A DNA stretch of 64,000 nucleotides from Defluviicoccus sp. (GCA_028821395.1 JAPPGP010000119.1:1-64000), one strand, 5' to 3'. Positions 12,001 through 59,962 are shown, counted from the stretch's first letter. Made by a program: numbers and translations. Notes: generated from the sequence alone by a model not told the origin.

Positions 12001-13116
12001 TCAGAGATCGAGCCGGTCGAGGATCCAGTTGTCGATCGCGTGCACCAGCGGCTCGCGGTGCGAGAACCTTCCGGGCCGGGCGAGCGGCGAGGCGAGCCCG
12101 GCGAACTGGCGCTCGGCGATCTCGTTGTCCTCGGCGATCGCGGTCTCGAAGCGCCGGTAGTAGTGCCGGACGACGGTCTCGAAATCGGCACGCGCCGCGG
12201 TTTCGCGCGGGAAGCAGATGGCGACCACGTTGCGCACCCGGTCGGGCCCGTCGGGCAGCATCTGCTTGAACCACATCGAATCGACGTCGCAGCCGATCAT
12301 CGTAGCCGGGTAGACCAGGAGATATTGCGAGCCCCGCGCCGCCGGACCGGCGAGCGTCGGGATCGGCGGGAAGCCCTCGGCGCCCTTGAGCAGCGCCCGG
12401 GTCCGCCCGCCCGAATCGGACTGCACGAGTACGTACTCGCCGGGCGCGCCGCGGACCACGGTCTTTCCGATCGACGGGTCGTTGACCGAGCTGCGGTGGA
12501 CGGTTGCGTGGTGGAAGGACTCCATCGAGTTCTCGACATAGCTCTTCCAGTTGGTGCGGACGGAATACTCGGCGCGCCGCACGGTCACCATGTCATCGAG
12601 CCCGTAGGATTCGAGGTGGCGGCCGAGATCGCCCAGATAATCGGCGAGCGGCGCGCAGCCGGGACCGAAGTTGACGAAGGCGAAGCCCTGCCAGCAGCCG
12701 AGCGGGATCTCGACCAGCCCGTACTCTTCCGTATCGAAGTTGCGCGCCCGCTCCATCCCGTTGGCGAAGTCGAGCCGGCCGTCGAGCCCGTAGGTCCAGC
12801 CGTGATAGGGGCAGACGATGCTTTCGCAGCGCCCTTCGCCGTCGAGCAGCCTGGCGCCGCGATGCCGGCAGCTGTTGGCGAAGGCGCGGAGCCGCCTTTC
12901 GCCATCGCGGATGACCAGGTATTCGGCGCCCGCCAGGTTCAGCGCCGCGTAGTCGCCGGGCTCCGGCCAGTAATCGGCGCGGCCGATCAGGTTCCAGCTG
13001 CGCAGGAAGATGCGCTCGACCTCCCGCCGGAAAAACGCTTCCGAGGTGTAGCATGCGGGCGGCAGGGTCTCGGCCTCGGCAAGCGGCCGCCGCACCGCCC
13101 GAAAATCCATCTCCAT
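12001..13116 (-). CDS. Rieske ring-hydroxylating oxygenase, alpha subunit type
   Basis: 371 residues. The Rieske [2Fe-2S] ligands are visible: Cys83-x-His85 in 'CRHRGARL' and Cys102-x2-His105 in 'CPYHGW'. The mononuclear iron site is 'ENSMESFHHATVH', with Glu199, His202 and His207 in the usual pattern. Such enzymes hydroxylate aromatics or demethylate quaternary amines (carnitine-, stachydrine- or choline-monooxygenase-like). The substrate is not determinable here. It is the last gene of the TAXI-TRAP/amidohydrolase operon, 56 bases after the amidohydrolase. No reductase or ferredoxin gene is adjacent, so electrons must come from elsewhere. Confidence 0.9.
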   Translation of the reverse strand: MEMDFRAVRRPLAEAETLPPACYTSEAFFRREVERIFLRSWNLIGRADYWPEPGDYAALNLAGAEYLVIRDGERRLRAFANSCRHRGARLLDGEGRCESIVCPYHGWTYGLDGRLDFANGMERARNFDTEEYGLVEIPLGCWQGFAFVNFGPGCAPLADYLGDLGRHLESYGLDDMVTVRRAEYSVRTNWKSYVENSMESFHHATVHRSSVNDPSIGKTVVRGAPGEYVLVQSDSGGRTRALLKGAEGFPPIPTLAGPAARGSQYLLVYPATMIGCDVDSMWFKQMLPDGPDRVRNVVAICFPRETAARADFETVVRHYYRRFETAIAEDNEIAERQFAGLASPLARPGRFSHREPLVHAIDNWILDRLDL

Positions 13117-13172: not shown

Positions 13173-14381
13173 CTACTCGTAGTCGGCGTGGTCGCGGGTC
13201 CTGCCGGCGCCGTCGTCGGCGATCATCGCCGGCGTCGCCACCCGGTCGGCGGGCGGGCCTTCGAGGCCGAAGAAGCGGCGCATGCGCTCGTAGACGATCT
13301 CGTGGCGCAGCGCCGGGTCCAGGCCCCTGAACATCTCGTAGAAGATCGGCGACGGGTCGGGCCAGGTGCCCTGCGGGTGCGGGTAGTCGGCGCCGAACAC
13401 CAGGATGTCGCGCAGCACGTTGTCGGGATGGGTGATCGCCTGGGCGGCGATCGCGTCCTCCTCGAAGGTGACCAGGACCTGACGCCGGACGTAAGCGCTC
13501 GGCAGCTCCCGGAGCCCGGTGTCGCGGAACAGGCCAGGGCGCTCCTCGGCCTGGCGGTCCATCCAGTAGACCAGGAACGGCACCCACCCCGCCCGGCACT
13601 CGGCGAACAGCAGCTTGAGCCCGGGATGGCGCATCAGCGCGCCGCAATAGACCACGTCGGCGAGCGGGCGCGACAGCGAGAACGGCGCGCAGGAGAAATA
13701 GGCCATGCGCTCGCCGCGGCCCGCCGGCGGGATGGTCGTCTTGACGTGGCCGCCGATATGGCAGGCGCACACCATCCGGGACTCCTCGAAGGCGGACCAG
13801 GCGGGCTCCCAGCATTCGTGGAACATCCCGTGCGGGCCGTCGAAGGGAACGAACTCGGCCGCCTTGCAGCCCATCGCGGCGAGCCTCCGGATCTCGCCCG
13901 GCACCGAAGCGGGGTCGAACACCGGCAGTATCGGGAGGATCATCAGGCGGTCCGGATCGCGGGCGTTGAGCTCCATCACCCAGTCGTTGTAGACGCGGTG
14001 CACCTCGTGGCGCAGCGCCGCGTCGTCGATGTCCCATTTGCGGGTGGAGCCGAACCCGACATAGCCGTAGACGCTGCCGTGGTCCATGTGCTCGAGCAGC
14101 AGCTCGGGGTCGGAGGGGGGCAGGCTGCCGTCCGGGATGCGCGCGCCCGACCGGCCGAAGAACTGGTCGAGCAGGGCGCGGTTCTCCGGGCCGTCGGCGG
14201 TGCCGCCGTCGCGCCCGCCGGCGATCTTGCCCTCCCAGCTCCAGAGCAGCGCGCCCTCGTGCTCGACCACCCTGGGCGCGTGCTCGCGGAACTTCGCGGC
14301 GACCCGATCCTGCCACAGCCGGGCCGGGATCCAGCGCTGGTCGAGGTGGTTGTCGGCCGAGTTGTACTTGTAGAGAGTCAC
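13173..14381 (-). CDS. Amidohydrolase family protein (Amidohydro_2-like)
   Basis: 402 residues from a GTG at 14381, chosen because it overlaps the TRAP permease stop (GTGA) and yields 'VTLYKYNSADNHLD', a family-type start. The ORF-track start adds 27 Arg-rich residues with no support. The barrel motifs are 'SADNHLD', 'CACHIGGHVKTTIPP', 'LKLLFAECRAGWVP' and the late 'ILVFGADYPHPQGTWP'. This is the pattern of metal-dependent hydrolases and decarboxylases acting on cyclic or aromatic acids. Context suggests it processes what the TAXI-TRAP system imports. Confidence 0.88.
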   Translation of the reverse strand: MTLYKYNSADNHLDQRWIPARLWQDRVAAKFREHAPRVVEHEGALLWSWEGKIAGGRDGGTADGPENRALLDQFFGRSGARIPDGSLPPSDPELLLEHMDHGSVYGYVGFGSTRKWDIDDAALRHEVHRVYNDWVMELNARDPDRLMILPILPVFDPASVPGEIRRLAAMGCKAAEFVPFDGPHGMFHECWEPAWSAFEESRMVCACHIGGHVKTTIPPAGRGERMAYFSCAPFSLSRPLADVVYCGALMRHPGLKLLFAECRAGWVPFLVYWMDRQAEERPGLFRDTGLRELPSAYVRRQVLVTFEEDAIAAQAITHPDNVLRDILVFGADYPHPQGTWPDPSPIFYEMFRGLDPALRHEIVYERMRRFFGLEGPPADRVATPAMIADDGAGRTRDHADYE

Positions 14382-16348
14382 AGGACCGCCCTCCTGCGGC
14401 GCGCGAGATAGTCCTTGCCGACGATCAGCCCGCCGAGCGCGAGCCCGGCGACGTTGAGCCACAGCCCGTAGGCGATCGCATGCGCCGGCAGCAGCAGTAG
14501 GATTCCGGCGGCGAAGACGAGGAGGCGTTCCGCCGCGCCGAGGCGCGAGAACATGAAGCCGATCAGCCCGCAGGAGGCGATCCAGACGCCGATCATCGCG
14601 GTCGCCGCGGCAGACACGATCTCAAGCGCCGTGCCCTGTCCGATCAGCGCCGGCGACAGCACGAACACGAAGGGGATGACATAGGCGATCCAGCCGAGGC
14701 GCACCGCCGTCGCCCCGGTCTCCATCGGCCGGGCGCCCGATAACGACGCCGCCGCGAAGGCGGCGATCGCCACCGGCGGGGTGATCATCGACATCAGACC
14801 GAAATAGAGCACGAACATGTGGGCGGCGATCGGGTGGATGCCGAGCTTGATCAGCGACGGCGCGATCATCGTCGCCAGCAGCAGGTAGATCGCCGAGGTC
14901 GGCATTCCCATGCCGAGCAGGATCGAGACGATCGCGGTCAGCACCAGGAGAAGGAACAGGCTGTCCTCGCCGACCGCAGCGAGGATCAGGGTCAGCGCCT
15001 GGCCCAGCCCGGTGCGGTCGAGGATGGCTATGATGATGCCGGCCATGGCGCCGATGACCACGATGTCGGCCGAGGCGCGGCCGCAATCGGCGATCGAGTC
15101 CCAGAGCTGCCGCGGCCTGATCCGGCGCCGCTTGTAGCCGAAGACGATACTGACCGCCGCCACCGAGATCGCCGCCCAGAACGCCGCCTCCTGGGCCGGC
15201 AGGTTGAGGGTGAAGAGCGCGTAGACCAGCACCGCGTAGGGCAGGGTGAAGAACCAGCCCTCCCTGAGCACCCGGAGGACCGGCGGGATGCGCTCCTTCG
15301 GCATGGGCGCGATGTCGTTCTTCGCCGCCTCGAGGTCGACCTGCACGAACACCGCGAGGTAGTAGAGGATCGAGGGGATCAGCGCGGCGAGGATGATCTC
15401 GGTGTAGTCGAGCTCCAGCAGCTCGGCCATCAGGAAGGCGGCCGCGCCCATAATCGGCGGCATGATCTGGCCGCCGGTCGAGGCCACCGCCTCGATGGCG
15501 CCGGCGCTCTTGCGGTCGTAGCCCGCCTGGCGCATCAGCGGGATGGTGATCACCCCGGTCGAGGCGACGTTGGAGACCGCCGAGCCCGAGATCGAGCCGA
15601 ACAGCCCCGAGGCGACGACGGCGATCTTGGCCGAGCCGCCGCGCGAGCGCCCCATGACGGCGGCGGCGAGGTCGGTGAACCACTCCGAGGCGCCGGTGTG
15701 CAGCAGAAGCTGGCCCATCCAGATGAACAGCACCACGGTGAGCACGATGATCTTGAGCGGCAGGCCCAGGAGGGCGACGTTGGTGACGCCGAGCTCGGCG
15801 ATCATCCGGTAGCCGTCCTGCTCGTAGCCCTTGAGCATGCCGGGGGCGAGATGGCCGACGAAGGCGTAGGCGATGAAGACCGAGAGCACCGCGGTCAGGC
15901 TCCACCCCGCGGTGCGCCTGAGCGCCTCCCACATCAGCGGCAGCAGCACGGCGCTGATCCAGAACATCTTGCCACGCATGGCGAACGGGTTGAGCTCGAT
16001 GTCGCCGTAGATCCATATGAGGTAGGCCGACGCACCGACGCCGACGACCGCGCACGCCGCGTCGTACCACGGCACCGACGGCCGGTCGCGCCCGCCGGCG
16101 AACGGGAAGCGGATGAACACGATGGCGAGCGTCAGCCCGAAACAGGCGACCAGCGCCTGCTCGTCGAACCACTGGAAGCCGAGGGCGAGCCACAGCTCGA
16201 TCGCCCAGGTCAGCGCGATCAGGGTGATGGCCGCGCCGAGAACCCGGGTCGAAGCTGTGACGAAGCGCCCCTCGCGGCGCTCGGCGAGGAGCTGCGCCCC
16301 GCGGTCCCTGCGGCGGCCGCCATCCGCCCCGGTCGACTGTTCGGCCAT
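14378..16348 (-). CDS. TRAP transporter fused permease (TAXI type, DctQ-DctM fusion)
   Basis: 656 residues with roughly 18 hydrophobic segments. The first third is the small (Q-like) domain and the remainder the large M domain, recognised by 'ASGLFGSISGSAVSNVASTG' and 'GMGMPTSAIYLLLAT'. Fused permeases of this kind work with TAXI-family binding proteins to import carboxylates by sodium or proton symport. The TAXI protein gene lies 79 bases upstream. Its stop overlaps the amidohydrolase start by 4 bases. Confidence 0.94.
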   Translation of the reverse strand: MAEQSTGADGGRRRDRGAQLLAERREGRFVTASTRVLGAAITLIALTWAIELWLALGFQWFDEQALVACFGLTLAIVFIRFPFAGGRDRPSVPWYDAACAVVGVGASAYLIWIYGDIELNPFAMRGKMFWISAVLLPLMWEALRRTAGWSLTAVLSVFIAYAFVGHLAPGMLKGYEQDGYRMIAELGVTNVALLGLPLKIIVLTVVLFIWMGQLLLHTGASEWFTDLAAAVMGRSRGGSAKIAVVASGLFGSISGSAVSNVASTGVITIPLMRQAGYDRKSAGAIEAVASTGGQIMPPIMGAAAFLMAELLELDYTEIILAALIPSILYYLAVFVQVDLEAAKNDIAPMPKERIPPVLRVLREGWFFTLPYAVLVYALFTLNLPAQEAAFWAAISVAAVSIVFGYKRRRIRPRQLWDSIADCGRASADIVVIGAMAGIIIAILDRTGLGQALTLILAAVGEDSLFLLLVLTAIVSILLGMGMPTSAIYLLLATMIAPSLIKLGIHPIAAHMFVLYFGLMSMITPPVAIAAFAAASLSGARPMETGATAVRLGWIAYVIPFVFVLSPALIGQGTALEIVSAAATAMIGVWIASCGLIGFMFSRLGAAERLLVFAAGILLLLPAHAIAYGLWLNVAGLALGGLIVGKDYLARRRRAVL

Positions 16349-45198: not shown

Positions 45199-45585
45199 AT
45201 GCCGGCGCTCTCGGTCACCCGCTTCGTGGTATTCGGCGAGACCTATTCGATTCTCGACGGCGTGCTCGCCTTCTGGTCGGACGGGCGCTACGCGCTGTTC
45301 GCGCTGGTGTTCCCGTTCTCGGTGGTGCTGCCGCTGGGCAAGGTGGCGATCGGGATCTGGGCCTGGCTGGCGGCGGCACCCGAGCGGTCGTTGCCCGGCC
45401 GGCTGCTGAAGGCCGCCGCCCGGGTCTCGCGCTGGTCGATGCTCGACGTCTGCATCGTGGCGCTGCTGGTCGTGGCGCTGGAAGGCAGCCTGCTGACCAC
45501 CGCCGACATCCACGCCGGGCTGCTGCTGTTCGCCGTGGGCGTCGCCGTCTCAACCGTCGCGACCTATCGCCTGGTGCAGCGCTAG
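45199..45585 (+). CDS. PqiA-domain membrane protein (true start probably upstream)
   Basis: 128 residues from the only ATG. The family match runs further upstream in the same frame: 'AGILLAASLPLLVAGLVMPALSVTRFVVFGETYSILDG', whose hydrophobic part is the first membrane span. Between an in-frame TGA near 44971 and 45199 there is no ATG, GTG or TTG. The real start may therefore be a rare codon, such as ATT at 45112 or CTG at 45115, directly after the preceding stop. PqiA proteins act in lipid transport or envelope stress. Its 3' end overlaps the convergent molybdenum hydroxylase by 36 bases. Confidence 0.75.
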   Translation: MPALSVTRFVVFGETYSILDGVLAFWSDGRYALFALVFPFSVVLPLGKVAIGIWAWLAAAPERSLPGRLLKAAARVSRWSMLDVCIVALLVVALEGSLLTTADIHAGLLLFAVGVAVSTVATYRLVQR

Positions 45586-47874
45586 CATGGCCGGGGAGAT
45601 CGGCACGCGTGCCGGCGCCGCCCAGCCCATGGCGCGGGCGACGGCGTTCCAGATCGCCGCGGGCGGCGCGATGGTGGCGCTCTCGCCGACGCCGCGGATA
45701 CCGAGCGGGTTGGTGGGAGACGGGGTGTCTTGCTCAACCAGCCGTGGGACCGGCGCGCCGTCGGCGACCGGCGCGAGATAGTCGGCCAGCGTCAGGGTGA
45801 GCGGCTGGCCGTCGGGCGCGAACTTCATCTCGGTCAGCAGCGCGTTGGCGATGCCCTCGAGCGCCCCGCCCGCGACTTGGCCGCGGACGATCGCCGGGTT
45901 GAGCGCCCGGCCGATATCGTGGCCCACCGTGTAATCCAGGATCTCGACCGAGCCGGTCTCCGGGTCCACCGCCACCCGCGCCGCATGCACGGAATAGGCG
46001 AGCGTCGCCGGCTCGTCGGCACGCCAGACGGTCGCCGCTTCGAGCCCCGCGGCGCCGTCGAACAGCGCCCCGCCCGGGGCGACGGCGCGCGCCGCGTCGC
46101 CGATCCCGAGCCCGCTATCGGTCCCGTCGCGCCGCAGGATGCGGCCGGCGGCGATGTCTAGCCCGGCGGGGTTGTCCTGTAGCAGCCGCGCGGCGATCGC
46201 GAGAATCCGGGCCCGCAGCGTCTTCGCCGCCTCCAGCACCGCGCTGCCCCCCATGATCGCACCCCGGCTCGCGAAGGCGCCGCGGCCGAAGGGAAGCAGC
46301 GCCGTGTCGCCGAGCGCGACCGAGACGCGCCCGATATCGGCGCCCAGCGCATCGGCCGCGATCTGGGCGAAAATCGTCGCCTGCCCCTGCCCCTGCGAGC
46401 TCATCCCCGAGGCAATGCAAACCTCTCCCGAAGGGCCGATGCGGATGGACGCGGACTCGAAGTTGACGACGCCCGAGACATCGACCCCGCCCGCCAGGCC
46501 CCAGGCCGTCCGCACCCCGCCGGGCCGGGTCTCGACCGCCTCGCCGTATCCGCTCTCCGCCCGCACCCGGTCGAGAAGCGCCGGGAAGTCGCCGCCGAGA
46601 AAGGCGAACCCGGCGCCGCCGAACCCGGTTCCCGTCGCATGGGGCAGGTCGTCGGGCCGTACCAGGTTGCGCCGCCTGAGCCGGGCGGCGTCCATGCCGA
46701 GCGCGCCGGCGGCGCGGTCGACCAGGGTCTCGATGGCGAGCGCCGCCTCGGGCTGGCCGGCGCCGCGATAGGTCGCCGCCGGCGTGTTGTTGGTGCCGAC
46801 CGCCAGCACCTCGACCGAGAAATCCGGGATCCGGTAGGCGCCCGGGATCAGCGCGCCGCACAACTCCGCCGTCGCGATCCCGCTGGTGAACACGTAGGCC
46901 CCGACATCGAGCACGACCCGCGCGCGTAGCGCCTCGAAGGCTCCGTCGGCGGCGAGTCCGAACTCGAGCGCGACATCGATGCCGCGCGAATGGGCGGTCG
47001 CCAGCATGTTCTCGCGCCGGTCCTCGATCCACTTGACCGGGCGGCCGAGCAGGCGGCTCGCTTCGGCCAGCACGATCTCCTCGCCGTAGCAGCGCGACTT
47101 GGCGCCAAACCCGCCGCCCACGTCCTCGCAGACCACCCGGACGGCGCTCTCCGGCAGGTCGAGCAGGGTGGCGAGGTTCTCCCGCACGTTGTAATGCGCC
47201 TGGGTGGAGAGCCGGACGGTGAGATGCCCGCGCGCGCCGTCGAAATCGGCCAGCGCGCCGCGGGTCTCCAGCGGCAGCGGGATCTGCCGCGCGAAGCTGG
47301 TCTGGTGGCCGACACGCCGCGCCGCCCGGGACAGCGCGCCCGCTGCATCGCCGCGCTCGTAAGAGAAGCGAGCGGCGACGTTGCCGGTCCAGGAGTCGTG
47401 CAGCGCGGGCGCTCCCGACCGCATCGCGGCGTCGGTCCCCGCGACGGACTCCAGCGGACGGTAATCGACCTCGACCAGCGCGGTGAGATCCTCCGCCTGA
47501 TAGGGATCGTCCGCCACCAGGAGGGCGACCGGCTCGCCGACATAGCGCGCCCGACCGCGCGCGAGGACGGGTTGCCTGCCGCCCCGGATCGCCTGGTGCC
47601 AGTAGCGCACCACGAAGTCCCGGTCGGCGAAGGGGAGATCGCCGGCCGTGAGCACCAGCCGGGCGCCGGCCGCGAGCGCCGCCGAGGCTTCGATGCCGGC
47701 GATCTCGGCATGCGGGTGGGGGCTGCGGACGAAGACCCCGTGCAGCATGCGGGGGAGGTGGACGTCGTCGACGAAGCGCGCCCGGCCGCGCAGCAGCCGC
47801 TCGTCCTCCTTGCGCCCAACCGCGCTGCCGACGACCGGGGTGGCCGAGCCTTCAGATCCCTCCCGGCCGCTCAT
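45550..47874 (-). CDS. Xanthine dehydrogenase/aldehyde oxidase family molybdopterin-binding large subunit (copy 2)
   Basis: 774 residues from the ATG at 47874; the longer ORF start adds residues antisense to other coding sequence. 'KEDERLLRGRARFVDDVHLPRMLHGVFVRSPHPHA', 'VCEDVGGGFGAKSRCYGEE', 'ATYRGAGQPEAALAIETLVD' and 'GIRGVGESATI' cover the cofactor and catalytic-Glu sites. The substrate is unknown. No FAD or 2Fe-2S subunit gene is beside it. It overlaps the NTF2-like gene upstream by 23 bases, implying a joint transcript. Confidence 0.92.
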   Translation of the reverse strand: MSGREGSEGSATPVVGSAVGRKEDERLLRGRARFVDDVHLPRMLHGVFVRSPHPHAEIAGIEASAALAAGARLVLTAGDLPFADRDFVVRYWHQAIRGGRQPVLARGRARYVGEPVALLVADDPYQAEDLTALVEVDYRPLESVAGTDAAMRSGAPALHDSWTGNVAARFSYERGDAAGALSRAARRVGHQTSFARQIPLPLETRGALADFDGARGHLTVRLSTQAHYNVRENLATLLDLPESAVRVVCEDVGGGFGAKSRCYGEEIVLAEASRLLGRPVKWIEDRRENMLATAHSRGIDVALEFGLAADGAFEALRARVVLDVGAYVFTSGIATAELCGALIPGAYRIPDFSVEVLAVGTNNTPAATYRGAGQPEAALAIETLVDRAAGALGMDAARLRRRNLVRPDDLPHATGTGFGGAGFAFLGGDFPALLDRVRAESGYGEAVETRPGGVRTAWGLAGGVDVSGVVNFESASIRIGPSGEVCIASGMSSQGQGQATIFAQIAADALGADIGRVSVALGDTALLPFGRGAFASRGAIMGGSAVLEAAKTLRARILAIAARLLQDNPAGLDIAAGRILRRDGTDSGLGIGDAARAVAPGGALFDGAAGLEAATVWRADEPATLAYSVHAARVAVDPETGSVEILDYTVGHDIGRALNPAIVRGQVAGGALEGIANALLTEMKFAPDGQPLTLTLADYLAPVADGAPVPRLVEQDTPSPTNPLGIRGVGESATIAPPAAIWNAVARAMGWAAPARVPISPAMLALHQAIGRDG

Positions 47875-48313
47875 CCGCGCTCGCCTCGGAGAAATGGACG
47901 TGGACGACCCGCCAGGCCCCGTCTTCCTTGTGGAACACCATCGTCGAGCGCGAGACGAATTCGCTGTCATGCAGCGCGCTGGGGCGATCGCCCTCGCCGA
48001 CCCAGCGCAGCCGGGTCCTGCGGTGGCACCAGATCACCGCGACGTCGTCGCCGACCGTGCCGCCGATGTCGTAGGGCGTCCAGGCGCCGGTCTCAAGCTT
48101 GCCGGAGTAGAATTTCCAGAGCCGGATCCAGTGGTCGCGCCCGACATAGGTGTGGCCGTTGAGGTTGAAGAAGGTCGCCCGATCCGCGCCGCTCCAGATC
48201 CGCTCCAGCGCCCGCCAGTCGAACGAGGCGTTGGCCTCCAGATAGGCGGCGTGCAGCGCCAGCAGGGTCTCGCGGTCGGCCTCGCTGCCGCCGACCGGCC
48301 CGGCCTCGGTCAT
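47852..48313 (-). CDS. NTF2/SnoaL-like domain protein
   Basis: 153 residues from the ATG at 48313. 'ETLLALHAAYLEANASFDWRALERIWS', 'YVGRDHWIRLWKFY' and 'STMVFHKEDGAWRVVHVHFSE' form the cone-shaped NTF2/ketosteroid-isomerase fold often annotated as SnoaL-like. It may be a hydratase or isomerase, or only bind a ligand. It overlaps the molybdenum hydroxylase gene by 23 bases. Confidence 0.83.
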   Translation of the reverse strand: MTEAGPVGGSEADRETLLALHAAYLEANASFDWRALERIWSGADRATFFNLNGHTYVGRDHWIRLWKFYSGKLETGAWTPYDIGGTVGDDVAVIWCHRRTRLRWVGEGDRPSALHDSEFVSRSTMVFHKEDGAWRVVHVHFSEASADERPGGI

Positions 48314-49423: not shown

Positions 49424-49921
49424 TCAAGGATCGATCGCCTTGCGTGCCACGGCTACGGGCAGTGCCAGGACCAGAGGATCGACCGGCGAATCCAGAAAAC
49501 CCAAATGCCGGTAGAAGCCCGCCGCATTGCTGTCGAGAGCATGAACGAGCAACGCCCTGATCCCGGCAATTTCGGCGGCCTTCAGGGTCCGCAAGATGGC
49601 ATCGCCTACCAAGCCGCGCGCGATTCCCATGCCCTGATGGGATCTGGCGACGGCCAGACGGCCCATCAGCATCACCGGGATCGGATCGGGCATGTTGCGT
49701 CTGATCCTTCCCGGCATGTCCGGGCGCTGCGCAGAACCCGCGGCCAGACAGTAGTAGGCGGCGATAACGCTCTTGTCGCAGACGACGTAGGTGCGCGAGC
49801 CGCCCTCGCGCTCGTTCCTTAGAGCGCGGGCGATCAGCCAGGTGTCGAGGCTCGGTTGGCCGCTGTCGAAACCTGCCAATACATGATCGGCGGAGATCGG
49901 CTCCGGCCCGGTCAGCGGCAT
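49424..49921 (-). CDS. GNAT acetyltransferase toxin (TacT-like)
   Basis: 165 residues. 'FDSGQPSLDTWLIARALRNEREGGSRTYVVC' and the acetyl-CoA loop 'MLMGRLAVARSHQGMGIARGLVGDAILRTL' match GNAT toxins that acetylate aminoacyl-tRNAs. So does the C-terminal 'FYRHLGFLDSPVDPLVLALPV'. It follows the DUF1778 antitoxin by 10 bases on the same strand, the standard TacA-TacT order. Confidence 0.92.
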   Translation of the reverse strand: MPLTGPEPISADHVLAGFDSGQPSLDTWLIARALRNEREGGSRTYVVCDKSVIAAYYCLAAGSAQRPDMPGRIRRNMPDPIPVMLMGRLAVARSHQGMGIARGLVGDAILRTLKAAEIAGIRALLVHALDSNAAGFYRHLGFLDSPVDPLVLALPVAVARKAIDP

Positions 49922-49931
49922 GACCGGACGG

Positions 49932-50216
49932 TCACCTGTCCCAGGGCGGTGGGGTGTTCAGCGTGCGGCGCAGTTCTTCGCTCGGCTCGGCCGGCGCATC
50001 GAGCATGGCCTCGAAAGCCGCGTATGACGCTTCGTCGAGGACGAACAGGCGCTGGTCGAGCAACACGTTCTCCGAGGCTTCGCGCATCGTGTCGAGGACG
50101 AACTCGGTGCGCGATTTGCCAAGGCGCTTCGCAGCGCGGTCGATCAGCGCCTTCTGTTCCGCCGAGGCGCGCAGATTGATCGTTTGGCTCTGCTGGACTC
50201 GCTCTGGAACCGCCAT
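49932..50216 (-). CDS. DUF1778-family antitoxin (TacA-like)
   Basis: 94 residues from the ATG at 50216; the ORF-track start adds sequence that contains the promoter. 'QTINLRASAEQKALIDRAAKRLGKSRTEFVLDTM' is the ribbon-helix-helix of DUF1778. 'FVLDEASYAAFEAMLDAPAEPSEELRRTL' is the toxin-binding tail. It represses its own promoter with TacT. Confidence 0.92.
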   Translation of the reverse strand: MAVPERVQQSQTINLRASAEQKALIDRAAKRLGKSRTEFVLDTMREASENVLLDQRLFVLDEASYAAFEAMLDAPAEPSEELRRTLNTPPPWDR

Positions 50217-50253
50217 GGGAGGCCTCGCATCATGTCCTTGTGTAACTACGATG

Positions 50254-50282
50254 TATATACGAACGGTTCGGCCCAGCGTCAA
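50254..50282 (-). promoter_or_regulatory. Promoter and operator of the DUF1778-GNAT module
   Basis: On the minus strand TTGACG (50277-50282) and TATATA (50254-50259) are 17 bases apart. The palindrome CGAAC-G-GTTCG (50260-50270) fills the spacer next to the -10 box and is a likely antitoxin operator. Confidence 0.7.
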
Positions 50283-50328
50283 CCGATATCCGCCTGCCAA
50301 CCGTCCAACCCCCGCTCGCCCACCCAAT

Positions 50329-52974: not shown

Positions 52975-53754
52975 ATGGCCGAGTTCGCGCTGCCCGCCAA
53001 TTCGAAGATCCGCAAGGGGAGGGACCACGCCGCGCCCGAGGGCGCCAAGCGGCCGAGAAGGTTCAGGATCTACCGCTGGGACCCTGATTCGGGCGAGACG
53101 CCGAGGATCGACCGCTACACCGTCGACCTCGACGATTGCGGTCCGATGGTGCTCGACGCGGTGATCAAGATCAAGAACGAGGTCGATTCGACGCTCACCT
53201 TTCGCCGCTCCTGCCGCGAGGGGGTGTGCGGCAGCTGCGCGATGAACATCGACGGCACCAACACGCTCGCCTGCACGCGGTTCATCGACGACATCAGGGG
53301 CGACGTGAAGATCTACCCCCTGCCGCACATGGCGGTGGTCAAGGACCTGGTGCCGGACCTCACGGATGCCTATGCGCAGTACGCCGCGATCGAGCCCTGG
53401 CTGAAGACCGAGACCCCGGCGCCGCCCGACGCCGAGCGCCTGCAATCGCCGGAAGAGCGCGAGAAGCTCGACGGGCTGTGGGAGTGCATACTCTGCTTCT
53501 GCTGCACCACGAGCTGCCCGAGCTACTGGTGGAACGGCGACCGCTATCTCGGCCCGGCGGCGCTGCTCCAGGCCCATCGCTGGATCGCGGATTCGCGCGA
53601 CGAGCACACCGGCGAGCGGCTGGATGCGCTGGAGGACCCGTTCCGGCTCTATCGCTGCCACACGATCATGAACTGCACCAAGACCTGCCCCAAGGACTTG
53701 AACCCGGCCCGCGCGATCGGCGCGATCAAGCAGCGCATGGTGGCCCGGCGGTAG
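52975..53754 (+). CDS. sdhB: Succinate dehydrogenase iron-sulfur subunit
   Basis: 259 residues with the three cluster motifs. These are '[21 protein letters not shown]' (2Fe-2S), '[11 protein letters not shown]' (4Fe-4S and 3Fe-4S) and '[18 protein letters not shown]'. It passes electrons from SdhA to the quinone site. It starts 13 bases after sdhA with CGGAGTCGTC before the ATG and converges on the ligase gene. Confidence 0.98.
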
Positions 53755-53770: not shown

Positions 53771-55417
53771 CTATGCTGAGTCTTCTCCCATCCGCGCCAT
53801 CACCCGCTCGGCGAGGCGGCGGCGGTTGACCCGCATGGTCTGGCCGCGCGGAAAGTCGTCGAACTGCTCGACGCGCACCGGGAACTTGTAACGCGCGAGG
53901 CCGCGGGCCTGGAGGAAATCGGTCACCTCGCCGAGCATGATCCCGTCCCCGCCGCCGGCGATCGCGCAGAGGCAGGGGACCTCGCCCAAAGTCCCGTCGG
54001 GGATGCCGACGACCGCGGCTTCCAGGATCTTCGGGTGCTCGGCGAGGATGCTCTCGAGCTCCAGCGGAAAGACATTCATGCCGCCGCGGTTGATCGTCTC
54101 CTTGATGCGCCCGACCAGGGTGACGTAGCCGTCCCGGTCGATGGTCGCCACGTCGCCGGTGCGGAACCAGCCCTCCGGGCCGAGCGTCCCCCAGGCCTCG
54201 ATCGTGGCCTGCGGGTCGCGGAAATAGCCCGAGGCGGTCGCCGGGCCGCGGATCCACAGCTCGCCCGCCTCGCCGGCGGCGAGCGGTTCTCCCGCCCCGT
54301 CGACGACGCGGATCTCGCCGCCGTCCATCACCCGGCCGATGGAAGGGCCCAGGCGGATCTCCTCGGGGTCGTCGATCCCCACCTGGCCGAAGGAGCAGGC
54401 CTCCATCGCCCCGCCCGCCTTGACCACCGGGCAGCCGAGCCGCTCTTCCGCCTTCTCGATCACCGCCGGCGGCAGATTGGCCGAGCCGGTACGGATCACC
54501 CTGAGCGAGGAGGTGTCGTAGTCGGCGAGCAGGGGCGAATCCGCGAGCCGGGCGAGGATAGCCGGCGCCGTCATGACCGCGCTCACCCGCTCGCGCTCGA
54601 CGGCGGGCAGCAGCGCTGCGGGCGCGAAACCGTCGGTCAGCACGAACCGCGCCCCGGTCAACAGCCAGCCGCTCCAGGCGTGGTATCCCGGCCCGCCCGA
54701 CATCGGCACGAAGCCGCCGATGACGTCGTCTCCCGTCACCCCCATGCGCGAGGCCACCCCTTTGCCCCATAGCAGCTCCTGCTGCTCCGGCCGTTCGACC
54801 AGCTTGGGTGTCCCGGTGCTGCCCGAGGTCACCACCAGCTTGGTCACCTCGTGCGGGCCGTAGCGCCGGTCCTCGCCGGGGACGGCGGTGCGGCTCTCCG
54901 CCGCGGCGTCGAGCGAGACCGGGATGCAGTCCGCCGCATCCGCGCCGGGATCGACGACAACCACGTTCACCGCCCCGTGGCGCGCGCGCACCGCGCGGGC
55001 CAGCGCCACCATGTCGCTGTCGCGGAACCGGCCCGGCACCACCATCGCGCCGGGCTTCAGCAAGTCGACCACCGCCTCCAGCTCGGCGCCGCGCCAGACC
55101 ACCGGCACATAGGCGGCCAGCAGCCCGAGCCGCTTGAGCGCGAGCCGTATCAGCGACTCCTCCACCGAGTTGGGGAGCTGGAGGACCACCGGCGTGTCGC
55201 GCCCGAGCCCCATCTCGGCGAGCGTCCGGGCGAAGCCCTCGACCGCCGCCAGCGCCTCGCGCCAGGTCAGCCGGCGGCGCGCATCGACGATCGAGATCTC
55301 GTCCGGCCGCGCCGCCGCGTGGGCTTCCAGGAGGTCCAGGGTGGTGGTGTCGGTCCAGTAGCCCGCGCGTCGCCAGTCCTCGATCATGTCGGCGGTGAAG
55401 CGGGTCGGCGGAGCCAT
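53771..55417 (-). CDS. Class I adenylate-forming enzyme (acyl-CoA synthetase-like)
   Basis: 548 residues. The AMP-binding P-loop is 'LVVTSGSTGTPKLVE'. 'GWFRTGDVATIDRDGYVTLVGRIKETINRGGMNVFPLELE' is the hinge and C-terminal lid, and the catalytic Lys is expected in the last segment near 'QTMRVNRR'. In that segment Met-Arg-Val replaces the usual Gly-Lys-(V/I), so the adenylation Lys may be absent (inference). It activates a carboxylic acid as acyl-AMP or CoA thioester. It is third in the flavoprotein-ferredoxin-ligase operon, 21 bases after the ferredoxin. Confidence 0.88.
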   Translation of the reverse strand: MAPPTRFTADMIEDWRRAGYWTDTTTLDLLEAHAAARPDEISIVDARRRLTWREALAAVEGFARTLAEMGLGRDTPVVLQLPNSVEESLIRLALKRLGLLAAYVPVVWRGAELEAVVDLLKPGAMVVPGRFRDSDMVALARAVRARHGAVNVVVVDPGADAADCIPVSLDAAAESRTAVPGEDRRYGPHEVTKLVVTSGSTGTPKLVERPEQQELLWGKGVASRMGVTGDDVIGGFVPMSGGPGYHAWSGWLLTGARFVLTDGFAPAALLPAVERERVSAVMTAPAILARLADSPLLADYDTSSLRVIRTGSANLPPAVIEKAEERLGCPVVKAGGAMEACSFGQVGIDDPEEIRLGPSIGRVMDGGEIRVVDGAGEPLAAGEAGELWIRGPATASGYFRDPQATIEAWGTLGPEGWFRTGDVATIDRDGYVTLVGRIKETINRGGMNVFPLELESILAEHPKILEAAVVGIPDGTLGEVPCLCAIAGGGDGIMLGEVTDFLQARGLARYKFPVRVEQFDDFPRGQTMRVNRRRLAERVMARMGEDSA

Positions 55418-55438
55418 CGGCAGAAGCGCCCAGCGGCG

Positions 55439-55699
55439 TCAGAGACGGGGATCGAAGCGGCAGGTGCGTTGCAGCCGGGCCAGCAGCGCGCGCCACTCCG
55501 CGTCGGTATAGCGCCGCGGCTCGACGCGGATCGCCTCCACCGGACAGTCGAACTCGCAGAGGAAGCAGCCCTGGCAATCTTCGGCGTAGACCGCGCTCGC
55601 CTTGCCGTCCCGCATGCGGATCACGTCGGTCGGGCACGAGTCCACGCAGGCGCCGCAGCCGGTGCAGACCCTCTCGTCGATGCTGAGCGCGACATGCAT
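55439..55699 (-). CDS. Ferredoxin-like protein with two 4Fe-4S clusters
   Basis: 86 residues from the ATG at 55699. Two full cluster motifs, 'CTGCGACVDSCP' and 'CQGCFLCEFDCP', are followed by 'VEAIRVEP' and a 25-residue tail. It resembles the ferredoxin-like beta subunit that pairs with AprA- or fumarate-reductase-like flavoproteins. The flavoprotein gene ends 5 bases upstream, so it is almost certainly its electron partner. Confidence 0.93.
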   Translation of the reverse strand: MHVALSIDERVCTGCGACVDSCPTDVIRMRDGKASAVYAEDCQGCFLCEFDCPVEAIRVEPRRYTDAEWRALLARLQRTCRFDPRL

Positions 55700-55704
55700 C
55701 GGCG

Positions 55705-57414
55705 TCAGCTCCTGAAGAAGGGGTGGAGGATCTTGCTGCGCTCCGGCATGCGGTGGTGCTCGTCGTCCGGAATCGGCTCGTCGAACAGGTCGAGCTCGCC
55801 GTTGCCGCCGATGCGCGCGAACGTGTATTTGAGCCAGCTCTCGTTGTCCATGTAGGGGTAGTCCTCGCGCAGCACGTTGCCACGGCTCTCGGTGCGGCGG
55901 CGCACCACCTCGACCGAGATCTCCATGCATTGCAGGAAGTTCTGCATGCCGAGCACCTTGGCGAGGTCGTGCGGGTCGTGCGCCTTCATGGTCGGCACCA
56001 GCCGGCCCCTGATGTCGCGCACCCGGCTGAGGATGTTGTCGAGCCGCCGTTCGTTGAGGATCTCGGTTATGTCGGTGCCGTAGAGGCCTTCGAGCTCGTC
56101 GCGGGTGGCGCCGAAACCGTTCTCGCCGGTCCGCTCCAGCGGCTCCAGGGTCTGCCGGGCGAGGCGGTCGACTTGCGCCGCGACCGGTTCTGCGGGGGGC
56201 GCTCCCCTGGCCGCGCCGCCGCCGGTCCCGCCCGCATGCCAGCCGCCCACCGCGCACAAGTTGAGCGCCTGGGCGAGCCCCATGAAGCCGCCGTCCGAGG
56301 TGTTGCCGGCGGCGTAGAGCCCGGGCAGCGTCGTCGACCCGTCGCCCGCCACCCTGATGCCGGCACCGCCGAGCGTGCCGCTCTGGAAAGGCAGCATGGT
56401 GACGAACGGGATGCGGTCCTTGCTCGGGTCGTAGCCGGCGCGCTCATAGGTGTTGAGCACGATGGGGACGACCTGCTTGTAGAGCCTGAGGTTCTCGGGC
56501 GTCAGATGGGTCGCGTCCTTGTAGACCGGCCCGCGCCCCTCGCCGTATTCGCGGATCACCGCGCGGGCGAGGCGGAAGCGGCGGATGCGGTCGCCGCCGG
56601 CGATCTCGGCGCCCTCGCCGTTGCAGAATCGGACCCCGAGCCCGGCGCCCATCTCCAGCCCCGGGGCGGAGTAGAACTCGGCCGGGATCACCCCCCAGCC
56701 GGCCAGAAACTCCATCTTCGAGAGCTGGGCGCCGGCGCGGTAGGCCGCCGCCACACCGTCGCCGGTGCAGTTGACCGGCATGCCGTGGAAGCCGGCGCCG
56801 GCGCGCGGATAGGGGATGTGCACCGGCCCGGTGCAGAGGATGGTCGAGGTCGCGCGGAAGACGTGGATCTCGCCGTCGACGGTGCCGACGCCGAGCGCGC
56901 CGACGACCCGCCCGCCGGTCGGGTGCTTGCCGTCGGAGGTCAGCAGCTCGGTGACCATGACGCGGTTGACCGCCTCGACGCCGCGCCGCAGGGTCTCGTT
57001 GCGCAGCGCCATCATGAATTGCGGGCCGCCCTCGGCCATCATCGCGTTGACCGGGAACAGCGGCCCGACCGCCATGTCGACGCGCTGGATCCTCCCCTTC
57101 TCCTTGATCCACTTGACGCCCCAGCGGTCCATCGCCAGCAAGAGGTCGCCGGTCGCCCGGATGCCCTTGCGCAGCGCGGTGACGTTGACCATGGGGTTGG
57201 TGTGCGCCTTGACCCAACGGTCGAGGTCGTCGCCCTCCATGTAGGCCTGGAAGACGCCCGAGGCGAGCGCGCTGGTGCCGCTCCGCCCATAGAACCCCTT
57301 GTCGACCAGCAGCACCCGGACCCCGGCCTCGCTCGCCCGGATCGCCGCGCAGGCCGCCGCGACGCCGCCGCCCACCACCAGAACGTCGGCCTCGTGAACA
57401 TGGGTCTCGGGCAT
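55705..57414 (-). CDS. FAD-dependent oxidoreductase, fumarate reductase/AprA-like flavoprotein
   Basis: 569 residues from the ATG at 57414; the extra 87 residues in the ORF track are non-coding. 'ADVLVVGGGVAAACAAIRASEAGVRVLLVDKGFYGRSGTSA' binds FAD. 'LPGLYAAGNTSDGGFMGLAQALNLCAVGGWHAG' is the second FAD segment. The C-terminal 'ESRGNVLREDYPYMDNESWLKYTFAR' is typical of SdhA/AprA relatives. With the adjacent ferredoxin it forms a two-subunit oxidoreductase. The substrate is not evident; the coupled acyl-CoA-ligase-like gene hints at an organic acid. Confidence 0.88.
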   Translation of the reverse strand: MPETHVHEADVLVVGGGVAAACAAIRASEAGVRVLLVDKGFYGRSGTSALASGVFQAYMEGDDLDRWVKAHTNPMVNVTALRKGIRATGDLLLAMDRWGVKWIKEKGRIQRVDMAVGPLFPVNAMMAEGGPQFMMALRNETLRRGVEAVNRVMVTELLTSDGKHPTGGRVVGALGVGTVDGEIHVFRATSTILCTGPVHIPYPRAGAGFHGMPVNCTGDGVAAAYRAGAQLSKMEFLAGWGVIPAEFYSAPGLEMGAGLGVRFCNGEGAEIAGGDRIRRFRLARAVIREYGEGRGPVYKDATHLTPENLRLYKQVVPIVLNTYERAGYDPSKDRIPFVTMLPFQSGTLGGAGIRVAGDGSTTLPGLYAAGNTSDGGFMGLAQALNLCAVGGWHAGGTGGGAARGAPPAEPVAAQVDRLARQTLEPLERTGENGFGATRDELEGLYGTDITEILNERRLDNILSRVRDIRGRLVPTMKAHDPHDLAKVLGMQNFLQCMEISVEVVRRRTESRGNVLREDYPYMDNESWLKYTFARIGGNGELDLFDEPIPDDEHHRMPERSKILHPFFRS

Positions 57415-57622: not shown

Positions 57623-58798
57623 TCAGGACTCGTAGGGCAGGCCGGCGTACTGCTCGGCGAGCGATGCCTGCGCATGGTCCGAGATCGAGAGGTATTCGAG
57701 CTCGTTCTCCCTGCTGCGCTGATCGAACTCGGTGTCGTCCGGAAAGCGGTGCAGGAGGTTGGTCATCCACCAGGACAGCCGCTCGCAATGCCAGACCCGC
57801 CGGAGTGCCATGTCCGAGTAGTCATCGAGGTAACGGTCGCGGCCGGCCTTGTAGTGCTCGACGAGGGCCCGGGACAGGTAGAACACGTCCGAGAAGGCGA
57901 GGTTCAGCCCCTTGGCGCCGGTCGGCGGCACCAGGTGGGCGGCGTCCCCGGCCAGAAACAGCCGGCCGTGGCGCATCGGCTCGCTGACGAAGCTGCGCAG
58001 CGGCGCGATCGACTTCTCGATGGTCGGTCCGGTGACGATCGCGTCGGCGATCTCGCTCGGGTAGCGCGATTTGAGCTCCTCCCAGAAGCGATCGTCGGGC
58101 CAGTCCTCGATCCGGTCGTCGAGCGGGCACTGGATGTAGTAGCGGCTGAGCATGGGGTTGCGCTGCGACGCCAGCGCGAAGCCACGCGGGTGGCTGGCGT
58201 AGACAAGGTCCTCCAAGGGCGGCGTCTCCGACATCACCCCGAGCCAGCCGAACGGGTAGACCTTCTCGTAGACCCGCGTGAGGTCGGCCGGCATGGACGG
58301 TCGGCTGACGCCGTGCTTGCCGTCGCATCCGGCGATGAAGTCGCAGTCGATGCGCTCGGGCCTGCCCTCGCGCTCGAGGGTTACATGCGGAGACGCGCCG
58401 GTCAGCCCGTGGAGCTCGACGTCGTCCACCTCGTCCAGGATCTCGCCCCCGGCGGCTTCGCGGGCGGCGTACAGGTCTTCCGTGATCGCCGTCTGGCCAT
58501 AGGCCATCATACTTTTGCCGGTGTATTTCCTGGTGTCGATGAAGAAGCGCCCGCGCCCGGCCCAGGCGATCGCGGCGCCGTCATGGACATGCCCCTCCCG
58601 GTCCATCCGTTCGCCGAGACCGACGTCGCGCAGCAGCTTCACCGAACCCGCTTCCAAGACGCCGGCGCGGATCCGCTTCATCACATGCGCCTTGGAGCGG
58701 CTTTCGAGGACGATGCTCTCGATCCCCTCCAGATGCAGGATGTGGGACAGCAGAAGCCCGGCAGGGCCGCCACCGATTATCGCCACCTGAGTTCTCAT
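57623..58798 (-). CDS. pobA: 4-hydroxybenzoate 3-monooxygenase
   Basis: 391 residues from the ATG at 58798. 'VAIIGGGPAGLLLSHILHLEGIESIVLESRS', 'RIRAGVLEAGSVKLLRDVGLGERM', 'DFIAGCDGKHGVSR' and 'GRLFLAGDAAHLVPPTGAKGLNLAFSDVFYLSRAL' are class A flavin monooxygenase motifs specific to PobA. It converts 4-hydroxybenzoate to protocatechuate. It is divergent from the BMP transporter operon across an AT-rich control region. Confidence 0.95.
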   Translation of the reverse strand: MRTQVAIIGGGPAGLLLSHILHLEGIESIVLESRSKAHVMKRIRAGVLEAGSVKLLRDVGLGERMDREGHVHDGAAIAWAGRGRFFIDTRKYTGKSMMAYGQTAITEDLYAAREAAGGEILDEVDDVELHGLTGASPHVTLEREGRPERIDCDFIAGCDGKHGVSRPSMPADLTRVYEKVYPFGWLGVMSETPPLEDLVYASHPRGFALASQRNPMLSRYYIQCPLDDRIEDWPDDRFWEELKSRYPSEIADAIVTGPTIEKSIAPLRSFVSEPMRHGRLFLAGDAAHLVPPTGAKGLNLAFSDVFYLSRALVEHYKAGRDRYLDDYSDMALRRVWHCERLSWWMTNLLHRFPDDTEFDQRSRENELEYLSISDHAQASLAEQYAGLPYES

Positions 58799-58865: not shown

Positions 58866-58951
58866 TTCTCTTGTCGAAGCGGCATGCGGGAGAAGCCGGC
58901 CCCGCTCAACCATCGGAGCGCGATCCCGCCCGCCAACGCAGGGAGGAAGAG

Positions 58952-59962
58952 ATGAGAGCACATTCATGCTTGCGGTCAGCAGGTATCGCGCTCGCCGGCG
59001 CGATCCTCGGGTTTTCCGGCGCGGCAATCGCCCAGGACATCAAGATCGGGCTGATCATGGAGGCCCGGCCCGCCGAGCAGCCCTGGAGTGCGGCGATATT
59101 CGATTCGGCGGAAAAGCTGAAGAAGGAAGACAAGGGGGTTTCCTTCGCCCAGTCCTTCAAGGCCTTCGATCCGACCTCGGCGGAGCCGATCGCGCGGCAG
59201 CTCCTGGCCGACGGCCACAAGGTCATGGTGATGCACAGCTTCGCGCTGAACGACGTCGCCCACAAGCTCGCCGGGGAGTTCAAGGCGATTCCGATGTCGG
59301 TCAGCAGCTTCGATCCCCCGGTCCAGCCCAACCTGACCATCGCGACGGCGAGCTATCTCCAGATCGGCTACTCCAACTGCTGGCTGCTGGCGAAGCTCTC
59401 GAAGTCCGGCAAGATCGGGTTCGTCGGGGCCATGCCGATCCCCTACGCCACCGAGCTCCAGCTCGGATGCGAGCTCGGCGCCAAGGCGGCGCGCGGCGAT
59501 GCCGAGGTGCTGGCGGCCTACAGCAACAGCTTCGTCGACCAGCAGGCGACCAGGGAACAGGCGCAAGGCGTGGTCGATCGCGGGGCGGACGCGCTGTTCC
59601 CGGCCTCGGCCACCCAGGACTCGCTCGGCGGATTCCAGCTTTGCGAGCAGGCGAAGATCCCGTGCGCGGGCTGGGCGAGCGACGCGCGCCGCTATTCGCC
59701 CAACTACGCCGCAGCCTCGGCGGTGGTCGACTGGACCGTCATGCTCAAGGAGTTCGTCAAGCAGGCGAGGAGCGGCAAGCTGTCGGCGACGACCTTCGAT
59801 GCGACCTTCCAGAACGGCGGCCTCGCGCCGCAGCCGTTCGAGGGCGCCTCGGCCAAGATCGTGCCGGCGGACGTGCGGGCCGGGTATCTCAAGGTGGTGG
59901 CCGACCTCAAGCAGGGGAAGATCGAGCTGCCGAAGAGCAAGGCCCACCCCTGCTGCCCGTAA
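58952..59962 (+). CDS. BMP-family (PnrA-like) ABC transporter substrate-binding protein
   Basis: 336 residues from the ATG at 58952, with GGGAGGAAGAG upstream. There is a signal peptide (ending GFSGAAIAQ), then 'KIGLIMEARPAEQPWSAAIFDSAEKL'. 'GKIGFVGAMPIPYATELQLGCELGAK' and 'QAQGVVDRGADALFPASATQDSLGG' are the periplasmic-binding fold of BMP proteins. Relatives bind purine nucleosides. It is first of a four-gene ABC operon that leads into a molybdenum hydroxylase gene, so a purine-like or other heterocyclic substrate is plausible. Confidence 0.9.
   Translation: MRAHSCLRSAGIALAGAILGFSGAAIAQDIKIGLIMEARPAEQPWSAAIFDSAEKLKKEDKGVSFAQSFKAFDPTSAEPIARQLLADGHKVMVMHSFALNDVAHKLAGEFKAIPMSVSSFDPPVQPNLTIATASYLQIGYSNCWLLAKLSKSGKIGFVGAMPIPYATELQLGCELGAKAARGDAEVLAAYSNSFVDQQATREQAQGVVDRGADALFPASATQDSLGGFQLCEQAKIPCAGWASDARRYSPNYAAASAVVDWTVMLKEFVKQARSGKLSATTFDATFQNGGLAPQPFEGASAKIVPADVRAGYLKVVADLKQGKIELPKSKAHPCCP

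Follow-up and report, generated by a model that had tools for sequence, protein, structure and literature searches.

Which chemistry is served by three tightly packed genes for a flavoprotein, a ferredoxin and an acid-activating ligase was the question raised by a 64,000-nucleotide stretch of Defluviicoccus sp. DNA (GCA_028821395.1, JAPPGP010000119.1:1-64000; analysed as a whole and hereafter called the window), which derives from a draft genome of 4.9 Mb in 266 contigs. On its minus strand, the flavoprotein gene (55705..57414, 569 amino acids) is followed after 5 bases by that of an 86-amino acid ferredoxin (55439..55699), and this after 21 bases by that of a 548-amino acid ligase of the ANL superfamily (53771..55417), all co-directional and with the gene order and spacing stated in a first-pass annotation. 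This annotation had likened the flavoprotein to AprA and fumarate reductase, and had suggested organic-acid rather than sulfur chemistry for the trio.

To the extent of the superfamily, the likeness was borne out: the Pfam domains FAD_binding_2 (1e-33, 117.6 bits against a gathering score of 20.4) and Succ_DH_flav_C (1.7e-10, 41.3 against 20.8) both place the flavin adenine dinucleotide (FAD)-binding protein in the fumarate-reductase superfamily. Its best NCBIfam match, NF006131 (PRK08275-type), reached 171 bits against a cut-off of 587, the scores with every profile of succinate dehydrogenase (SDH) and fumarate reductase (FRD) fell far under the cut-off, and TIGR02061 (AprA) gave 49.9 bits against a curated cut-off of 641.75. 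The residues of the active site were then mapped using the numbering of Archaeoglobus fulgidus AprA (verified on the PDB chain) and that of Escherichia coli SdhA. At the columns of AprA W234, R265 and H398, which we take to be catalytic or substrate residues, and of Q145, the window flavoprotein has G, I, L and M, respectively. The Q145 loop has likewise been assigned such a function (PMC10322725). The genome's own AprA keeps all four residues, and the methanogen reductase of 3′-phosphoadenosine 5′-phosphosulfate (PAPS) keeps W, R and H. Among the SdhA site residues, H242, E255, H354 and R399 are absent and only R286, the proton-shuttle arginine of SDH, FRD and NadB, is kept, as R279 of the window flavoprotein and as an Arg in all core family members. 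In the phylogenetic tree, AprA with PAPS reductase (100/100), SDH/FRD/NadB (100/99) and the core family (100/100) were all separate; the paralogues on other contigs of relatives fell outside the family (L037, L038 and L040) or were without placement (L039). The flavoprotein therefore represents, as judged by its sequence, a family of its own within the fumarate-reductase superfamily, neither AprA nor SdhA/FrdA. Because the AprA residues are lost, SdhA R286 is kept and the tree separates the family, (de)hydrogenation of a C–C bond with a different substrate pocket appears more likely than sulfite or adenylate chemistry. Automated annotation would label such a protein AprA or SdhA, and thereby have it misread as part of sulfur metabolism or the tricarboxylic acid cycle. 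Two AlphaFold models had mean predicted local distance difference test scores of 49 and 55, and the fold search returned the superfamily without separating AprA-like from SDH-like proteins, so it carries no weight.

The ferredoxin, presumed to be the electron partner of the flavoprotein, has eight cysteines in two CxxCxxCxxxCP motifs and matches Fer4/Fer4_21 (Fer4 dicluster), which gives two [4Fe-4S] clusters, in agreement with the two-cluster ferredoxin first proposed. Across the relatives, which are Defluviicoccus-type metagenome-assembled genomes (MAGs), the trio was intact and syntenic in four sister species, that is in 5/5 Defluviicoccus species including that of the window, with identities to the window of 93–94% for the flavoprotein, 90–97% for the ferredoxin and 83–87% for the ligase. 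The ratios of nonsynonymous to synonymous substitutions (dN/dS) were 0.06–0.16, 0.06–0.13 and 0.14–0.37, respectively; all three genes are therefore maintained under purifying selection, with the ligase under weaker constraint, and given the synteny in four sister genomes and dN/dS values of 0.06–0.37, the trio arrangement is more than chance. Its flanks vary: downstream, sdh genes occur in the window and L009 only and a response-regulator-like gene in L006–L008, while the upstream neighbour is pobA (window), a family-3 solute-binding protein (L007 and L009), a divergent Peripla_BP_6 protein (L006) or other genes (L008). As the flanks differ between species while the trio is constant, the trio holds together as a unit. 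The position beside sdhCDAB, which had been pointed out at first, is thus true of the window, but as it is seen in 2/5 species only, this adjacency is not conserved and probably incidental. One Defluviicoccus-type relative, bin129, presumably comes from an Aplysina aerophoba sponge metagenome, and the label of another, RHO2, suggests by its name a different sponge host. No other members of the flavoprotein family were seen among 385 Alphaproteobacteria or 399 Pseudomonadota, both even samples, and the best flavoprotein matches among plasmid records were only ~25–27% identical, with the ligase search of these records giving generic ligases only.

The next flavoprotein homologues, with 39–44% identity, were found in MAGs labelled ‘Deltaproteobacteria’, of which some derive from groundwater and one bears a sponge-like label; in the class of one of these genomes (G408), the main source of the family outside Defluviicoccus, 14/148 genomes have it, often in two copies (types A and B). 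At every relative locus read whose contig extends far enough, the ferredoxin lies directly behind the flavoprotein; contig ends cut L104, L095, L106, L107 and L057. At 16 loci of relatives, an ANL ligase adjoins the pair or lies within ~4 kb of it, and the gene order varies: on the same strand behind the ferredoxin, as in the window (L025), convergent in type A (L010, L090–L094, L096 and L097), near or divergent and propionate-CoA-ligase-like in type B (L098–L103), and upstream in L105. There was no ligase nearby in L026 and L027. As a background density, AMP-binding_C genes number 38 across the 4.9 Mb of the window genome, roughly one in every 130 kb. Beside the family stand solute-binding proteins of five classes (Bmp, family-3, Peripla_BP_6, NMT1 and TAXI), ornithine-cyclodeaminase/mu-crystallin-like genes recur near it (L010, L025, L090–L093, L096 and L105), and in L105 the neighbours include an IclR regulator most similar to PcaR/PobR, together with a UbiD-family decarboxylase and a GltD-like NAD(P)H oxidoreductase. 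Judging from gene content, these are the neighbours of a pathway that breaks down imported organic acids, and the acid itself is not named by them.

That the ligase belongs with the flavoprotein, as first suggested, was supported by its own phylogeny. The protein matches AMP-binding (1.7e-57) and AMP-binding_C, as expected of an ANL enzyme, and a tree that included 10 further ligases from the window genome grouped the window-type, L105 and type-A/L025 ligases in one clade (100/100) apart from those 10, with the L105 ligase (44% identical) sister to the Defluviicoccus ligases. Matches to the profile of this clade of at least 700 bits were found in 11/14 flavoprotein-bearing genomes and in 0/129 others. 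In G408, G409 and G814, the clade ligase lies divergent beside an NMT1-type solute-binding protein, 69–77% identical to one in L097. The type-B ligase is PrpE-like and sits on another branch of the tree, so the flavoprotein family has come together with acid-activating enzymes on at least two occasions.

On these grounds we favour, with moderate confidence, a catabolic module for an imported, perhaps cyclic, carboxylic acid. An importer with a solute-binding protein, of the kind that recurs beside the family, would bring in the acid, the ligase would supply its CoA thioester, and the flavoprotein would remove or add two electrons at a C–C bond in either the acid or its thioester, R279 acting as acid/base like SdhA Arg286. 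The electrons would pass via the 2×[4Fe-4S] ferredoxin to a partner that may be a GltD-type NAD(P)H oxidoreductase like that of L105. Also in favour of the proposal, the profiles of cyclohexanecarboxylate-CoA ligase and 2,3-dihydroxybenzoate-AMP ligase rank among the best for the ligase, although all score below cut-off. Several points weigh against it. The upstream gene differs among the sister species, so that no single importer is tied to the module. R279 lies within an Arg-rich stretch (RIRRFRLAR), so that its alignment is surer for the relatives than for the window, and the equivalent Arg is missing from L104, L105, L107 and L028. The co-occurrence of clade ligase and flavoprotein has a Fisher p of ~4e-14, a statistic inflated by genome relatedness. 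Amino-acid change is about three times faster in the ligase than in the flavoprotein, which, with its loss of the A10 lysine, could mean a relaxed role. In the literature, no description of a flavoprotein-ferredoxin-ligase module was found; a benzene-activation cluster pairs an AMP-binding protein with GlcDEF-like flavoproteins, which are of another family than the window flavoprotein (PMC13101534). The module is conserved and, within the reach of the literature searches, undescribed, and it brings to light an apparently undescribed flavoprotein-ferredoxin family that has its own dedicated ligase and occurs in MAGs that are sponge-associated or from groundwater.

The A10 position bears most directly on an unlikely, though by no means negligible, alternative, namely that the ligase performs the thioester half-reaction only, or else is an ANL protein that has become degraded or regulatory, and that flavoprotein and ferredoxin form a free-standing oxidoreductase. 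The ligase C-terminus reads FPRGQTMRVNRRRLAER, and the motif QTMRVNRR had drawn attention from the outset, as it is without the expected adenylation Lys, and had led to the suggestion that the enzyme may carry out just a part of its reaction; alignment to PDB chains and ~50 other ANL enzymes confirmed that the A10 position is Arg. This Arg, preceded by Met in place of Gly (TMRVNRR), is fixed in 5/5 Defluviicoccus ligases. The A10 Lys is kept in 30/30 other ligases read from the genome and in 16/16 complete relatives from the flavoprotein loci; it is fully conserved across 374 ANL enzymes (PMC6122825) and touches the alpha-phosphate during adenylation (PMC8388817). Because of this conservation, the change is a fixed, lineage-specific departure, and a dN/dS of the ligase exceeding that of its neighbours also fits a reduced role. 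However, the Defluviicoccus ligases retain A3 Lys, A5 Glu, A7 Asp and A8 Arg, their dN/dS is far under 1, the five do not differ in the residues surrounding the Arg, no species lacks the gene, and Arg for Lys alone is no proof that adenylation is lost. Within the favoured catabolic module, the replacement in Defluviicoccus would imply that the adenylation half-reaction is slowed or altered, or that another residue takes over. A fixed natural change at one of the most conserved ANL residues offers a test of how far the half-reactions are separable. In the type-A ligases (L010, L090–L094, L096 and L097), the A10 Lys is present, but two other near-invariant ANL residues are changed, A5 from Glu to Asp and A7 from Asp to Glu.

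More doubtful is a link to hydroxybenzoate, in which the module would act on 4-hydroxybenzoate or its product. The gene pobA for 4-hydroxybenzoate 3-monooxygenase (57623..58798, minus strand; TIGR02360, 594 bits against a cut-off of 538.7) lies upstream of the flavoprotein on the same strand, the IclR regulator in L105 is of PcaR/PobR type, and the ligase is nearest to aryl-acid adenylating enzymes, its closest solved structures being salicylate- and 2,3-dihydroxybenzoate-AMP ligases. Nevertheless, pobA is separated from the trio by a gap of 208 bases and stands beside it in the window genome only (1/5 species). The closest characterised ANL enzymes are the aryl-acid AMP ligases (DhbE, EntE and salicylate-AMP ligase) and cyclohexanecarboxylate-CoA ligase (TIGR03208), from which the window ligase differs in its A10 Arg and in scores far under the cut-offs, as TIGR02275 for aryl-acid AMP ligases (248 against 723.6 bits) and TIGR03208 (265 against 792.3) were among its best profiles; the AHNY at the substrate pocket of DhbE is SGGPGY in the window ligase.

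A sulfur enzyme like AprAB or PAPS reductase, in which adenosine 5′-phosphosulfate or PAPS would be attacked or formed at FAD N5 with the ferredoxin as carrier and the ligase incidental, is very unlikely. Such a reading draws on the partnership of FAD and 2×[4Fe-4S], since AprAB and the FAD-type PAPS reductase (PDB 8a8o) likewise combine a flavoprotein of the superfamily with a small 2×[4Fe-4S] protein encoded alongside, and on the closest solved sequence to the family profile, the alpha subunit of Methanothermococcus PAPS reductase (142 bits), which also tops the fold search with a low-confidence model. The window pair differs in its loss of W234, R265, H398 and the Q145 loop, its clade separate from AprA/PAPS reductase, its ferredoxin of only 86 amino acids, and its recurrent partner, the ligase. 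No sat, aprM or dsr was seen near the trio. The first-pass annotation had held that the rest of sulfur metabolism is lacking, and in this it erred for the genome: contig C180 (locus L033, 6736–9619) carries a genuine aprA, cut short by the end of the contig (TIGR02061, 845.6 bits), followed by an ATP-sulfurylase-like gene recognised by inspection only, and the organism probably has dissimilatory sulfur metabolism. With a true AprA present on contig C180, the window flavoprotein is a second, divergent superfamily member in this organism. The annotation's preference for organic-acid chemistry nonetheless gains from the lost AprA residues, the ligase partner and the catabolic neighbours, which all point that way, and neither clustering with AprA nor AprA residues, named there as evidence for the opposite, were found. 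AprA identity was ruled out by the TIGR02061 score, the lost residues and the tree.

An ATP-independent acyl-CoA route, in which the pair of flavoprotein and ferredoxin would, with AMP present, oxidise a substrate such as an aldehyde to an acyl-adenylate, is modelled on the formation of adenosine 5′-phosphosulfate from sulfite and AMP by AprAB; the ligase, because its adenylation Lys is lost, would only transfer CoA, and we consider the route highly improbable. A fumarate/succinate-type dicarboxylate enzyme tied to the neighbouring sdh operon is supported by the superfamily fold and the proton-shuttle Arg, and is improbable in the extreme given the four missing dicarboxylate binders, scores far under all cut-offs, 22–24% identity to SdhA/FrdA/NadB, a module with neither a membrane anchor nor a three-cluster subunit of SdhB type, and an sdh adjacency that is not conserved. 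SDH/FRD/NadB identity was ruled out by the scores and the missing residues.

As for the further surroundings, sdhB (52975..53754, plus strand, assigned by NCBIfam) is convergent with the ligase at 16 bases and outside the module. Beyond pobA, a divergent gene (58871..59962, plus strand) encodes a BMP/PnrA-type solute-binding protein of an ATP-binding cassette importer (Pfam Bmp, 1.4e-19), with an ATPase and permeases behind it by inspection. Elsewhere on the minus strand of the window, a GNAT acetyltransferase-like gene (49424–49921) stands directly behind a short DUF1778/ribbon-helix-helix-like gene (49932–50327), an arrangement that by eye is as in TacAT-type toxin-antitoxin pairs. A Rieske oxygenase (12001–13116) resembles GbcA with 141 bits, below the cut-off, and a fused permease of a tripartite ATP-independent periplasmic transporter (14378–16348) scores 576 bits, above the cut-off. 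The large subunit of a molybdenum hydroxylase of the CO-dehydrogenase/xanthine-dehydrogenase superfamily (45550–47970) falls under all curated cut-offs and has a 36% identical relative in L030 (10529–12880, starting at the right edge of the window).

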